Source: Crocinitomicaceae bacterium
Lineage (GTDB): Bacteria; Bacteroidota; Bacteroidia; Flavobacteriales_D; Crocinitomicaceae
NCBI GenBank assembly: GCA_023262855.1
Contig: JALQYQ010000022.1
Location: 49,969-113,968, forward strand
Length of the DNA: 64,000 nt
Direction: 5' to 3'
Position numbers and translations under genes: made by a program. Under the pieces are notes generated by a model that made no database searches, had not been told where the DNA came from, and saw nothing but the letters and a program-made list of their open reading frames with translations. Numbering within the stretch: position 1 is the stretch's first letter; every line of letters begins with the position of its first letter. This document shows, in pieces, positions 46,188 to 51,478 of this stretch.

Positions 46188-47540
46188 TTAGTGATTTGAA
46201 ACGATTTCCTTTTCATGTTTAGGAACAAACATCAAGAAGATCAATCCAAAAACAAAGAAAAATGCAACAGAAGCTACTGAATAACGAATTGAACCTGTCC
46301 AGAATTCCATTAAACCGAAAAACAAAGTTCCCAATACAATTCCGATTTTTTCTGTAACGTCGAAGAACGAGAAGTAGCTGGCGTGATCCGTTGTTTCAGG
46401 TAAGAATTTAGAATACGTTGAACGCGCAATTGCTTGAACTCCACCCATAACTAAACCAACTGAACTTGCAAGAATGTAGAATTCAACAGGCGTTTTGATA
46501 AAAAATGCTCCCATGCAGATTACAATCCAAATAGAAACAGAAATAAACAAAGTGCGAATGTTTCCAATTTTACTTGAAACGCGTGACATGATAAATGCTC
46601 CCAGTGCGCCTAGAATTTGAATCAATAATATAGCAATGATAAGCCCAGATGATCCACTTCCTTCTGGCCAAGCTATTTCCTTGTTTGCAAAAATAGTTGC
46701 CATCAACATGACAGTTTGTACTCCCGTATTGAAAAAGAAAAAAGCGAATAAATAACGTTTCAATCGTCGTGTTTTCTTGAATTCTTTGAAAACCAGCAAC
46801 AATTCTTTGAAGCCTCGCCAAATGTAACCGCTTTCTGGTTTTTTATTGTAAACATTGTTCGGTAAAGCACGGTAGGTAAATTGACTAAAACCAATCCACC
46901 AAAGACCTACAAGAACGAAACTCCAACGCGTATACTCTTTACCAATGCCCATAATTATTGCTAAACAAATCACCAATAAAGTCATTGATCCAATATAACC
47001 CATCGAAAATCCTCTGGCTGAAATTTTATCATGATCTTCAACCTCTGCTATTTCCGGTAAAAAGGCATTGTAAAAAACCAAACTATTCCAATAACCAATA
47101 CTTGCAAGAAACACAGACAACATTCCTAACTCCAATCTTGAAGGATCAAATGCAAACAAACTCATACATGAAAATGAGCCCATGTAACAGAAAAACTTAA
47201 GAAATTTCTTTTTACTCCCCGTATAATCTGCTACACCGGAAAGTAATGGAGACAAAAAAGAAACAACAAGAAATGATGCTGATAAAACAAATGAATATAA
47301 AACAGATGATGATAATTCACTACCAAAGAAGTTAACTAAAACTGTTTCATTTTCCTTAATCATATTTACATCAACAAGACCATCTCCGTCTAAATATCCT
47401 TTTGATGCAGCATATGCATGTTTTGTTTGTGAATCATAAAAAATAGGAAAAATAGCTGAGGAGATAACTAAATTGTATACCGAGTTCGCCCAGTCATACA
47501 TTACCCAGCCGCGAATTATTTTCTTATTTCCTTTTTCCAT
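46188..47540 (-). CDS. MFS transporter, UMF1 (Atg22-like) family
   Basis: IRGWVMYDWANSVYNLVISSAIFPIFYDSQT...LSPLLSGVADYTGSKKKFLKFFCYMG...GGVQAIARSTYSKFLPETTDHASYFSFFDVTEKIGIVLGTLFFG. Confidence 0.95.
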   Translation of the reverse strand: MEKGNKKIIRGWVMYDWANSVYNLVISSAIFPIFYDSQTKHAYAASKGYLDGDGLVDVNMIKENETVLVNFFGSELSSSVLYSFVLSASFLVVSFLSPLLSGVADYTGSKKKFLKFFCYMGSFSCMSLFAFDPSRLELGMLSVFLASIGYWNSLVFYNAFLPEIAEVEDHDKISARGFSMGYIGSMTLLVICLAIIMGIGKEYTRWSFVLVGLWWIGFSQFTYRALPNNVYNKKPESGYIWRGFKELLLVFKEFKKTRRLKRYLFAFFFFNTGVQTVMLMATIFANKEIAWPEGSGSSGLIIAILLIQILGALGAFIMSRVSSKIGNIRTLFISVSIWIVICMGAFFIKTPVEFYILASSVGLVMGGVQAIARSTYSKFLPETTDHASYFSFFDVTEKIGIVLGTLFFGLMEFWTGSIRYSVASVAFFFVFGLIFLMFVPKHEKEIVSNH

Positions 47541-47568
47541 AATCTTACCTTTTCAATTGTACTGACGA

Positions 47569-48789
47569 TTATTCTTTCCCGTCAACGTAATCTTGTAAAT
47601 AACTGTAGTATTCAGTTAATTGTCCATCGGTAGTGGTTTCGCTTGCTCGACCAATCATGTTATCAGGATCTTCTTTCAACAAGGCTGGTAATACATGACG
47701 CATCAATTCGTTTCCAAAATCTTCTGAAGCATCTAATGGTAATTCGCACGGCAAATTGTCAACTGCCATTACTGCAATTGCCCCTTGTTTTGTGAAATCA
47801 ACCTCTGATTCCGAAATTGGATCGTATCCATAAATTGGATCAGCAATTTTACTTGGACGAATCGTGCACGCAACAGGTCCGTCAATATCACATGAAATAT
47901 CTGCTACTACACTTAAACGAACATTGTCTTGTTTTAAATCTTCACGCGTAATGATGAATGGTGAACGATTACTCCAGAAATGACATGGAATGTACATATC
48001 CATCTCCGGTAAAAAACGATTAAATGTTGATTTGTACAATTCAGGATTCGAATAAAATTCTGCTTTATCGAATGGTTTTCCATCTTTTCTTCCGTAATAA
48101 TCTTCTACTTCCAAATGCGCAAAAACTGGCTCATTGAACGTTGTTTTCAAGAACTCGTCTGGAGTCACTTCTTTGATCGGTAAAATGTCAATTATTTCAC
48201 GAGCGCCATGTCCTACTCGACCGAATCCAGTTAGCACAATTTTTGTATTTTCCGGCAATACGATTTTCGACATTTCAGCTTCCATTTCTTTGCGGTCAGC
48301 ACATTTGTTCGCTGGCTTAATATCGAATAAACCAGTTTTCAATCCCATCGCTCTAAAACCATTGTAAGCTCCTACAATTCCAGCGTAACGACCAAAACCA
48401 ATCACTCGCTTATTTTGCTTATTTTTGATGGTTTCATAATCAATCAACTGGATTTTCTTTTCCAAAATTGCACGCAACAAATCACGATTGTATGGTTGCT
48501 TTTTTAGTGTATGAGAAAAGAATAAGAATTTTTTATTTGGAATTAAATCAGAGATATTAACTTCCTTCACCCCCATGATAATGTCACAAGCACTCAAATC
48601 TTCGTTTAATTTCATCCCCTCAGCAACATATTCTTCGTCTTTGTATGCACGAATTGGACTAGGCTGAACAATGATTTCAACATTTGGATAGATTGCCTGA
48701 ATCGATTTACATTGCTTTGGAGTCAGTGGTACACGGTGATCTGGTGGAACTTTTCCTTCTCGAATTAGACCAATTTTAATTTTTTCCAT
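47569..48789 (-). CDS. Alanine dehydrogenase/saccharopine dehydrogenase-like NAD(P)-dependent oxidoreductase (AlaDh_PNT fold)
   Basis: MEKIKIGLIREGKVPPDHRVPLTPKQCKSIQAIYPNVEIIVQPSPIRAYKDEEYVAEGM...KIVLTGFGRVGHGAREIIDIL...SVVADISCDIDGPVACTIRPSKIADPIYGYDP. Confidence 0.85.
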   Translation of the reverse strand: MEKIKIGLIREGKVPPDHRVPLTPKQCKSIQAIYPNVEIIVQPSPIRAYKDEEYVAEGMKLNEDLSACDIIMGVKEVNISDLIPNKKFLFFSHTLKKQPYNRDLLRAILEKKIQLIDYETIKNKQNKRVIGFGRYAGIVGAYNGFRAMGLKTGLFDIKPANKCADRKEMEAEMSKIVLPENTKIVLTGFGRVGHGAREIIDILPIKEVTPDEFLKTTFNEPVFAHLEVEDYYGRKDGKPFDKAEFYSNPELYKSTFNRFLPEMDMYIPCHFWSNRSPFIITREDLKQDNVRLSVVADISCDIDGPVACTIRPSKIADPIYGYDPISESEVDFTKQGAIAVMAVDNLPCELPLDASEDFGNELMRHVLPALLKEDPDNMIGRASETTTDGQLTEYYSYLQDYVDGKE

Positions 48790-48799
48790 TTTTAATCTC

Positions 48800-49477
48800 T
48801 TAAGATAATGGTTGTTTTAATATGTATGAATCGATGAATTCTCTTACGCATCCATCGCCTCCTTTTTTCGTTAATACGACATCTACATGTCCTTTTACTG
48901 CATTCACAGCATCACTTGGGCAAGCTGAAAAACCAACATTTTTGATTATTTCCAAATCATTGATATCATCGCCAACAATCGCAACGTTTTCCAGCGTTAT
49001 GCCTAAATCGGCGCAGTGTTGCTTCAATATTTCAATTTTGGGATCTCGGCCAACATAACAGAATTGAATTCCCAAAAGTTCAGCTCTTGCTTTTACCATT
49101 TCACCTTTGAAACCTGATGAAATAATTGCCAATTGAAAATTATCTTTCACCAAATGTTGAATTGCCATTCCGTCTTTGGTATTGTATTTTTTAAATTGAT
49201 CTCCACTTTCGGTATAGTACATTCCGCCGTCCGTCATGACGCCGTCAACGTCCAACACCAACAATTTCAATTTTTCAATTTTCTTGTTCCACAAATCAGG
49301 ACGATACATTGGTTTGAACAACAAAGATAACATGTCAACGTCGTATTCTTCACAAACAGCTTCCAAATCGTAAACTGTCAGTTCATTTACATCATCCACA
49401 TCCAAATCATTCAAAAACTCGTTGTAATCAACACCGAATTTCGCACAAAGTCCTTTTAAATTTTGTTGTAAATGCAT
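48800..49477 (-). CDS. KdsC-like HAD-superfamily phosphatase with about 65-aa N-terminal extension
   Basis: LKLLVLDVDGVMTDGGMYYTESGDQFKKYNTKDGMAIQHLVKDNFQLAIISSGFKGEMVKARAELLGIQFCYVGRDPK...VAIVGDDINDLEII...LTKKGGDGCVREFIDSYIL; extension MHLQQNLKGLCAKFGVDYNEFLNDLDVDDVNELTVYDLEAVCEEYDVDMLSLLFKPMYRPDLWNKK. Confidence 0.88.
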   Translation of the reverse strand: MHLQQNLKGLCAKFGVDYNEFLNDLDVDDVNELTVYDLEAVCEEYDVDMLSLLFKPMYRPDLWNKKIEKLKLLVLDVDGVMTDGGMYYTESGDQFKKYNTKDGMAIQHLVKDNFQLAIISSGFKGEMVKARAELLGIQFCYVGRDPKIEILKQHCADLGITLENVAIVGDDINDLEIIKNVGFSACPSDAVNAVKGHVDVVLTKKGGDGCVREFIDSYILKQPLS

Positions 49478-49478
49478 A

Positions 49479-50477
49479 TTAAATCATTTTATAACCAACG
49501 CTTTCCGCAACTGGACGAAGTGAATTCAACAATTGTTCGAATTGCGCATGATCTAATTGCTGAGACGCATCAGATTTCGCTACTTTAGGATTTGGATGTG
49601 CCTCAATCAACAAACCATCAATTCCCATTGCCACACATGCTTTTGCTAAATTTGGAATACCATAAGCATAACCCATTGCATGCGAAGGATCCAAAATAAT
49701 TGGCAAGTTCGTATATTCTTGCATCCAAGCAACACCGCACAAATCAAGCGTAAAACGTGTTCCTGTTTCGAACGTACGTAAACCGCGTTCACACAAGATC
49801 ACATTTTCATTTCCACCTGATAAAACGAATTCTGCTGCTTGTGCAAATTCTTGTAAAGTCGTTCCGAAACCACGTTTAATTAAGACTGGTTTATTTGTTT
49901 TTGCACACGCTCGCAAGATTCCCTGATCGTACATTGCTTTTGCTCCAACTTGAATAACATCAGTGTATTCGATGATTTCATCAATGTGCGTTGCATCACG
50001 CGCTTCTGTTATAACATTTAAGCCATAATCTTCACGCATTTTTGCCAATAATTTTAATCCTTCAAGGCCTAAACCTTGAAAGGAATAAGGACTCGTTCTC
50101 GGTTTGTAGCAACCTCCGCGAAGTGTTGTCAATCCTAATTTTATCAATAATTCAGAAGATTCTCTTATTTGCTCTTCTGACTCAACAGAACAAGGACCAC
50201 CAATTAACAACGTGTTTCCAGTCGATCCTCCAATTGTTACGTTTCCAATTTTAACTTCACGCTTTTCATTGCGATAATTTCTAGACGCCAATTGCATGTC
50301 GTTCGGAAATACCCAAAATTGGTCAACACTATTTTCTATGCTAGTTGGAACTTCTTTTACACCTGAACCAGTGATCAAAATATTTGTTCCATTTGAAGTA
50401 ATGTGAAATGCCTTGATTTGTTCTGCCAAAGCTGCAGCATCTTGTTGTGAAACAGATGATTTTAAATGTATTATCAT
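49479..50477 (-). CDS. aroF: 3-deoxy-7-phosphoheptulonate (DAHP) synthase, type I-beta
   Basis: N-terminal ferredoxin-like module; LIGGPCSVESEEQIRESSELLIKLGLTTLRGGCYKPRTSPYSFQGLG...VLIKRGFGTTLQEF...VILCERGLRTFETGTRFTLDLCGV...LPIILDPSHAMG...IEAHPNPKVAKSDASQQL. Confidence 0.93.
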   Translation of the reverse strand: MIIHLKSSVSQQDAAALAEQIKAFHITSNGTNILITGSGVKEVPTSIENSVDQFWVFPNDMQLASRNYRNEKREVKIGNVTIGGSTGNTLLIGGPCSVESEEQIRESSELLIKLGLTTLRGGCYKPRTSPYSFQGLGLEGLKLLAKMREDYGLNVITEARDATHIDEIIEYTDVIQVGAKAMYDQGILRACAKTNKPVLIKRGFGTTLQEFAQAAEFVLSGGNENVILCERGLRTFETGTRFTLDLCGVAWMQEYTNLPIILDPSHAMGYAYGIPNLAKACVAMGIDGLLIEAHPNPKVAKSDASQQLDHAQFEQLLNSLRPVAESVGYKMI

Positions 50478-51478
50478 AATTCTCCTTTGATAAGATGCAC
50501 AAAGTTAACAATTCCTGCCGCTTTTCCTTCGTTTTTTAACACTGGCAAGTACATTACAGGAAATGCACATTTTTTAATTGTTTGAAGTAATTCTACCACT
50601 GTTGAATCGTCTGAAATAGACACAGGATTCGAATTCATCATAGATTTAGCTTCCAAAGCATTTAAATTTGATAAGTTTTTCAAAACTCCTTTTCGAATAT
50701 CAGCCGAAGAAACAATTCCTGCCAAATTCCCAGAATTGTCAACGACCAAACAGAAGCCAAGATTTCCATCTTCAATTGTTTGCAACGTTGTTTTCAAATC
50801 CATTGTTTCATAATTCACCACTGGACATTCATCCAACGGCATCATAAAATCCCCAACATGGAATTGTGATTCAATTTCTCGTTTCGTCAAGTTCATCAAT
50901 GCATGACCAATGCTTGGTGCGTTGAATAAATAGGAACCTGACACCGATGAACTCACCCCCATATTTCGTAGGATAAATGAAACTTCTCCATTTACTCCAC
51001 CGTCAACATGAATAGATTTTGCAGGATATTTTTTTCTAAACTGACGAATTTTTGAGAAATTAATTTTATCAAAAACGCCCCCACTTTGTCCAGGAATTGT
51101 CGCCATGATCAAAATAAAATCAAACTGTGCATATTCATCAAAAGCTGCAATTGAAGTTGGAGTAATGATTGCCAACCCTTTTCGACCAGAAATATCCGCT
51201 GGAATTTCTAATTTCCCTGGCAAATCTTCATATTGAAAGGTGATGTATTCAACAGGATTTTGGCGCAATAAATCAAAATACTTTGTGGGATCGTTGGTAA
51301 TAATATGCAAATCAATCGGCAAATTACACATCGAACGAATCAACTGAATATCTTCAAAAACACTTAAATCATCATTGCAATCAACATGCAACAAATCTAC
51401 TTGGTGGTTAACTAAGTCGATAATCACTTCGGGTAATGAGCGTTTTTTGTCAGAATAAATTGACGCTGATATCTTCAT
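50474..51478 (-). CDS. Ribulose-phosphate-3-epimerase-like TIM barrel fused to a tandem CBS domain pair
   Basis: RPE-like signatures LLHVDCNDD, IDLHIIT, ATIPGQSGGVFDKINFSKIRQFRKKYPAKSIHVDGGVN; then CBS pair DFMMPLDECPVVNYETMDLKTTLQTIEDGNLGFCLVVDNSGNLAGIVSSADIRKGVLK...MMNSNPVSISDDSTVVELLQTIKK...VLKNEGKAAGIVNFVHLIKGEL. Confidence 0.85.
   Translation of the reverse strand: MKISASIYSDKKRSLPEVIIDLVNHQVDLLHVDCNDDLSVFEDIQLIRSMCNLPIDLHIITNDPTKYFDLLRQNPVEYITFQYEDLPGKLEIPADISGRKGLAIITPTSIAAFDEYAQFDFILIMATIPGQSGGVFDKINFSKIRQFRKKYPAKSIHVDGGVNGEVSFILRNMGVSSSVSGSYLFNAPSIGHALMNLTKREIESQFHVGDFMMPLDECPVVNYETMDLKTTLQTIEDGNLGFCLVVDNSGNLAGIVSSADIRKGVLKNLSNLNALEAKSMMNSNPVSISDDSTVVELLQTIKKCAFPVMYLPVLKNEGKAAGIVNFVHLIKGEL

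Follow-up and report, generated by a model that had tools for sequence, protein, structure and literature searches.

Three adjacent genes on the (-) strand of the window (the whole stretch of 64,000 nucleotides that was analysed) form the locus described here and are referred to as the triad (Table 1). They encode a fusion of an RPE-like barrel with a pair of CBS domains (RPE-CBS), a DAHP-synthase-like enzyme (DAHPS*) and a KdsC-like phosphatase. The original prediction was of a 334-aa protein with an RPE-like barrel and a KdsD-like CBS pair, overlapping a DAHP synthase gene by 4 nt, with a KdsC-like phosphatase gene following after 1 nt. The protein architecture held in the ORFs, in Pfam, in profile comparisons and in Foldseek searches, and the ORF coordinates confirmed both the overlap and the gap of 1 nt between DAHPS* and the KdsC-like gene. 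Downstream of the triad (46188..48789) we observed genes for an alanine-dehydrogenase/transhydrogenase-like protein, without NCBIfam match, and for an Atg22-type MFS transporter. Reading the locus as a defence system was rejected, as there was no PADLOC match.

Table 1. Features discussed in the text, with positions in the window unless a locus identifier is given
Feature	Position	Strand	Size	Remarks
RPE-CBS fusion	50474..51478	(-)	334 aa	Proposed first committed enzyme, KdsD equivalent
RPE-like (beta/alpha)8 barrel	50879..51478	(-)	Residues 1 to ~200 of RPE-CBS	S6, H31, D33, H58 and D159 kept
CBS pair, KdsD-type	50477..50878	(-)	Residues ~201-334 of RPE-CBS	Proposed CMP-sugar feedback sensor
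Stop/start overlap of RPE-CBS and DAHPS*	50474..50477	(-)	4 nt	Kept in most relatives
DAHPS*, DAHP-synthase-like enzyme, type I-beta	49479..50477	(-)	332 aa	Proposed ulosonate-phosphate synthase, KdsA equivalent
KdsC-like HAD phosphatase	48800..49477	(-)	225 aa	~65-aa N-terminal extension; proposed ulosonate-phosphate phosphatase
Transaldolase-CBS	L210:4718-5728	(-)		Further copies in L215-L224

With Pfam, RPE-CBS matches the RPE family (71.5 bits, cut-off 21.1) and CBS (49.2 bits); Ribul_P_3_epim and CBS were the only domains given, and a SIS sugar-isomerase domain was not found. Its score against the RPE equivalog TIGR01163 (65.4 bits) stays below the cut-off of 212.6. An AlphaFold2 model of the protein (mean pLDDT 90.6) was compared with known structures using Foldseek, and the best matches were RPE structures, followed by the CBS pair of the arabinose-5-phosphate isomerase 4o9k, which we take to have been solved with CMP-Kdo. 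The same entry is the best PDB profile match of the CBS pair (5e-12), and the KdsD/KpsF model TIGR00393 matches residues 208-325 with 35.1 bits. Sequence profiles and Foldseek thus show that the CBS pair of RPE-CBS is closest to those of KdsD/KpsF.

The prediction that the His/Asp metal positions are kept also held. In the aligned orthologues S6, H31, D33, H58, M125, D159, G160-G161 and G181-S182 are invariant. They correspond to the metal, catalytic and phosphate positions of RPE, so that the barrel has the His/Asp metal site and the catalytic Asp pair of RPE. Two methionines that stand beside the metal ligands in RPE are replaced (HxDxM becomes HVDCN and HLM becomes HII), and the loop that follows strand 6 has changed to PGQSGG. 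Since the metal and catalytic residues are invariant and the methionines and the loop are changed, RPE-CBS looks like an active epimerase with an altered pocket; this activity is inferred from sequence, without assay data. The source genome encodes a separate, ordinary stand-alone RPE, and normal KdsA and KdsD were not found in it.

DAHPS* matches the Pfam family DAHP_synth_1 (223.8 bits) and passes the NCBIfam model DAHP_synth_Bsub, TIGR01361 (312.7 bits, cut-off 267.75), and is well below the cut-off of the KdsA model TIGR01362 (130.7 versus 314 bits). The KPRTS motif is present in all orthologues readable at that stretch. In the motif comparison, the KANRS motif of KdsA was absent from DAHPS*; loop 7 is short, without the extension seen in KdsA. 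Because it keeps the KPRTS of DAHP synthases and not the KANRS of KdsA, DAHPS* may use a C4 aldose. The enzymes nevertheless form a clade of their own, which has lost the GRR/GIRK loop and has GAKxMYD in 48/48 triad sequences versus GARNxQN in 6/6 canonical DAHP synthases. Some genomes with KdsA have DAHPS* but no RPE-CBS; they belong to genera g34 (L131, L132, L158), g49 (L157) and g45 (L154-L156) of family f3 and g26 (L152, L153) of family f10. There DAHPS* lies in KdsD-KdsA-KdsB-DAHPS* or KdsD-KdsA-DAHPS* clusters or beside a KdsC-like gene; in g34 and g49 it is inside a KdsD-KdsA cluster.

The KdsC-like protein passes the KdsC family model TIGR01670 (140.2 bits, cut-off 106.95) and remains under both the KdsC equivalog cut-off (133.7 versus 208 bits) and that for KDN-9-phosphatase (153.3 versus 180 bits). 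The N-terminal extension is also found in KdsC-like copies outside the triad, and one relative has a weak score against an RstR-type repressor model. Most triad genomes tested have a second KdsC-like phosphatase of canonical length (~180 aa) elsewhere (G000:C36:22475-22915 in the source genome, and equivalents); in G101 the triad copy is the only one.

The conservation of the triad was followed in 50 retrieved loci. RPE-CBS adjoins DAHPS* in nearly all of them, with the KdsC-like gene next where the contig permits, and gene order and the 4-nt overlap are retained down to 53% identity; the arrangement is therefore not due to chance. There are two exceptions: one locus (L029/L135) has an additional ORF between synthase and phosphatase, and in L051 the synthase and KdsC genes are on the same contig but ~9 kb or more distant. 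We then looked at distribution in two samples, 197 genomes from the order and 299 from across the phylum. Within the order, RPE-CBS was found in 68 genomes, or 69 when G145 is included; G145 cannot be counted as lacking the gene, as its triad copy is truncated by a contig end. These genomes comprise almost all sampled members of family f1, which is Crocinitomicaceae since it includes Fluviicola, plus a few genera of f3, f8 and f10; in the phylum sample RPE-CBS is confined to f1. The triad is thus conserved beyond the species in which it was noticed.

In the same 197 genomes (69 with the triad, 128 without) we searched for KdsA, KdsD, KdsB and WaaA. No triad genome has a KdsA-grade match (0/69) or a KdsD-grade match (0/69), while KdsB (67/69) and WaaA (68/69) are retained. 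Among the non-triad genomes, KdsA is present in 120 and KdsD in 113, and 10 have another fusion, transaldolase-CBS, described below, so that KdsD or transaldolase-CBS is found in 123/128. RPE-CBS, KdsD and transaldolase-CBS never occur two together, and 192 of the 197 genomes have exactly one of the three. LpxC was found in 25/25 genomes tested. Among triad genomes, G077 alone encodes a KpsF-like SIS protein (L141, G077:C1:29568-30023), which is strongly diverged (92.7 bits, cut-off 203.7). Gaps between contigs could mimic the absence of KdsA and KdsD; we rejected this explanation because both are also missing from a complete genome, G107, which we take to be that of Fluviicola taffensis, in one contig of 4,633,577 bp (PMC3236050).

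Two members of f1, G154 and G187, carry KdsD and KdsA. At the syntenic locus the MFS, AlaDH-like and KdsC-like genes are still present, as is the upstream hydrolase, and the only genes missing are RPE-CBS and DAHPS*; the KdsD-KdsA pair is located elsewhere in the genome. In the KdsB tree, both genomes are nested among triad genomes. From synteny and this tree, we read them as a two-for-two enzyme exchange, a natural reversal that acts as a genetic control, and it is this exchange that indicates replacement at the level of the pathway. In genomes that lost RPE-CBS and the synthase, the AlaDH-like and MFS genes still adjoin KdsC. At the vacated site, both exchanged genomes have a small ORF, probably for a lipoprotein (L136:3519-3935 and L139:3146-3526); that of L136 has no Pfam match.

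Except for G021, a fragmented assembly, every triad genome examined also encodes a chorismate-mutase-type DAHP synthase, which makes the triad synthase dispensable for aromatics. Very probably, the triad replaces KdsD and KdsA as a non-orthologous source of a 3-deoxy-2-ulosonate that is activated by KdsB for lipid A; this rests on comparative genomics, without biochemical or LPS-composition data. One of the two options left by the original prediction, a variant 3-deoxy-ulosonate pathway with an epimerase barrel substituting for the KdsD isomerase, has strong support, because triad genomes lack KdsA and KdsD and keep KdsB and WaaA, and because G154 and G187 swap RPE-CBS and the synthase for KdsD and KdsA. 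None of the grounds for dismissal named with that prediction was encountered: the triad extends beyond the species, and the barrel retains its catalytic residues. Which aldose phosphate is used is not settled.

A further apparent stand-in for KdsD was observed in 10 genomes that have neither KdsD nor the triad (G004, G016, G002, G067, G085, G106, G061, G076, G115 and G127, from genus g21 of f5 and genera g19 and g47 of f3). It is a transaldolase/FSA-like barrel joined to a KdsD-type CBS pair; the G004 copy shares its operon with genes for a KdsA-like enzyme and a HAD phosphatase. The KdsA-like synthases of these genomes (L207, L208, L209, L210, L212, L213) have KDNRSS for KANRSS and Met in place of the AxxR arginine, and may therefore use another aldose. 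From sequence and genome distribution, we infer that transaldolase-CBS is a second, independent replacement of KdsD. CBS pairs of KdsD can bind CMP-Kdo, and the presence of this pair in KdsD, RPE-CBS and transaldolase-CBS would fit an inferred role in sensing the final CMP-sugar, exerted on whichever enzyme provides the first committed substrate. That the KdsD pair sits on two unrelated barrels suggests a portable feedback module for the first committed step.

Whether the product is Kdo itself was approached through KdsB. We compared 31 KdsBs from triad genomes with 29 others over 248 alignment columns and examined four pathway switches. At residue 141 (Ile141 in the source genome, alignment column 146), 29/31 KdsBs from triad genomes have Ile and 29/29 from other genomes have Val; the two triad exceptions with Val are G168 and G186. 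Val is also found in all solved relatives compared and is kept in the KdsBs of transaldolase-CBS genomes. Of the 248 columns, only column 146 changes identically at every one of the four switches, the reversal in G154/G187 among them. The KdsB tree indicates vertical inheritance, and so the change from Val to Ile arose separately in f1, f3 and f8 and was reverted in G154/G187. An unchanged product would not require this switch, which favours a different sugar. We lean towards a product other than Kdo, an inference whose weight is limited by the two exceptions and by the fact that the residue could not be placed in the sugar pocket. In sialate synthetase, a contact with the glyceryl tail was proposed for Lys142 (PMC2901514), but the profile alignment of KdsB to this enzyme covers only the N-terminal domain and ends before residue 141; a correspondence between Ile141 and Lys142 is possible but no more than a hunch. 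In a small sample, nothing clear was found when a matching co-change was sought in WaaA.

Taken together, the best explanation is that the triad replaces KdsD and KdsA, contributes its own KdsC-like phosphatase and feeds KdsB and WaaA, to which we give a probability of roughly 0.75; substrates, product and regulation are inferred. RPE-CBS would epimerise an aldose phosphate, with the CMP-sugar acting on its CBS pair to inhibit or tune the enzyme. DAHPS* would condense the aldose phosphate with phosphoenolpyruvate and the KdsC-like phosphatase would take off the phosphate. KdsB would then make the CMP-sugar and WaaA attach the sugar to lipid A, as usual. The second KdsC-like phosphatase that most triad genomes tested retain, and the lack of a clear co-change in the small WaaA sample, count against this explanation.

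For the sugar, the chemistry we rank first, without giving it more weight than all others combined, is inferred from established reactions: erythrose 4-phosphate would be epimerised at C2 to D-threose 4-phosphate, and condensation with phosphoenolpyruvate would yield 3-deoxy-D-lyxo-heptulosonate 7-phosphate. Erythrose 4-phosphate is ribulose 5-phosphate without the C1 hydroxymethyl group and cannot close a ring, and an enzyme of RPE type could for these reasons epimerise it at C2; the reaction would be the same alpha-carbon proton transfer as that of RPE on ribulose 5-phosphate. The D-lyxo C7 product would have the ring stereochemistry of Kdo, with carbon 8 missing. This route accounts for the three-gene order, the retained KdsB and WaaA and the small change in KdsB. 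A bolder and slightly more doubtful reading, still compatible with the data, makes a joint claim: that the whole family joins its core oligosaccharide to lipid A via a C7 analogue of Kdo, 3-deoxy-D-lyxo-heptulosonic acid, with D-threose 4-phosphate as its precursor, and that RPE-CBS is an erythrose/threose-4-phosphate epimerase under feedback control by a CBS pair borrowed from KdsD. To our knowledge, D-threose 4-phosphate is not known as a bacterial metabolite, and neither it, nor a heptulosonate in LPS, nor a bacterial C7 analogue for LPS was found in the literature searched. Against the C7 chemistry, the DAHPS* copies that lie without RPE-CBS in KdsD-KdsA clusters could possibly mean that the enzyme uses arabinose 5-phosphate.

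The most serious rival, which remains possible, is that the triad makes ordinary Kdo. DAHPS* would then be a new KDO8P synthase, supplied with arabinose 5-phosphate that RPE-CBS forms either from ribose 5-phosphate, epimerised at C2, or from ribulose 5-phosphate by isomerisation. The mutual exclusivity and the clean swap with KdsD and KdsA, with KdsB and WaaA unchanged in presence, fit this equally well, as do the DAHPS* genes without RPE-CBS where KdsD is present, including those of g34 and g49 in KdsD-KdsA clusters. Known chemistry lends it further support, since some type I-beta DAHP synthases accept a broad range of aldoses (Pyrococcus furiosus) and D-allulose-6-phosphate 3-epimerase, a member of the RPE family, accommodates a phosphate one carbon further away. 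However, an identical product would not require a change at a fixed position of KdsB at each pathway switch, and DAHPS* retains the C4-aldose motif KPRTS and a short loop 7. Moreover, ribose and arabinose 5-phosphates are mostly cyclic, whereas RPE uses open-chain sugars.

It could also be argued that DAHPS* makes ordinary DAHP, with 3-deoxy-D-arabino-heptulosonate (DAH) as the product, and that RPE-CBS only steers pentose phosphates to erythrose 4-phosphate. DAHPS* does pass the DAHP synthase model (312.7 versus 267.75 bits) with KPRTS kept, and no tetrose epimerase has to be postulated. We nevertheless consider this unlikely: DAH differs from Kdo at C5 and would require KdsB and WaaA to tolerate a ring epimer, otherwise conserved residues are altered in DAHPS*, and the strict linkage between RPE-CBS and DAHPS*, together with the mutual exclusivity of RPE-CBS, KdsD and transaldolase-CBS, suggests that RPE-CBS makes the actual substrate. 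Least plausible of all is a CBS-regulated pentose-phosphate module that supplies DAHP synthase for aromatic amino acids, with the KdsC-like gene incidental. In its favour, RPE and DAHP synthase share a metabolite pool and the barrel keeps the RPE residues. However, the tested triad genomes other than the fragmented G021 have a chorismate-mutase DAHP synthase, the source genome has a stand-alone RPE, and neither the loss of KdsA and KdsD with KdsB and WaaA kept, nor the exchange in G154/G187, nor the KdsD-type CBS pair is explained. The second option of the original prediction, a regulated supply of erythrose 4-phosphate for aromatics, is thus unlikely, given that other DAHP synthase and the unexplained loss of KdsA and KdsD.

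Kdo synthesis is regarded as near-universal and essential in LPS-making bacteria, and KdsA and KdsD serve as drug targets and LPS markers. In a whole bacterial family, both appear to have given way to enzymes from unrelated protein families. Which sugar results is undecided and Kdo itself is still possible, as the case is inferred from comparative genomics without substrate or product data; if the C7 product is true, it would be a new inner-core anchor for LPS. The Val/Ile switch of KdsB makes the question of sugar specificity directly testable.

Compared with known systems, RPE-CBS has the same type of C-terminal CBS pair as KdsD/KpsF, is likewise the first gene ahead of a ulosonate-phosphate synthase and is mutually exclusive with it across genomes, but its catalytic domain is an RPE-like TIM barrel and that of KdsD a SIS domain. 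Fold and metal and catalytic residues are common to RPE-CBS, RPE and D-allulose-6-phosphate 3-epimerase; RPE-CBS differs from RPE in its sub-cut-off score, the lost methionines, the PGQSGG loop and the CBS fusion, and the true RPE is encoded separately. DAHPS* shares the TIGR01361 pass and KPRTS with type I-beta DAHP synthases and differs from them by its clade, GAKxMYD, the missing GRR/GIRK loop and a dedicated operon. It belongs to the same superfamily as KdsA (KDO8P synthase) and holds the same inferred pathway position and niche, but without KANRS and the extended loop 7 and with a TIGR01362 score far below cut-off. The KdsC-like protein passes TIGR01670 like KdsC and KDN-9-phosphate phosphatase, but fails both equivalog cut-offs and has ~65 extra N-terminal residues. 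Finally, Dha (3-deoxy-D-lyxo-heptulosaric acid) of rhamnogalacturonan-II carries the D-lyxo C7 skeleton of the proposed product, but is an aldaric acid and occurs in plants.
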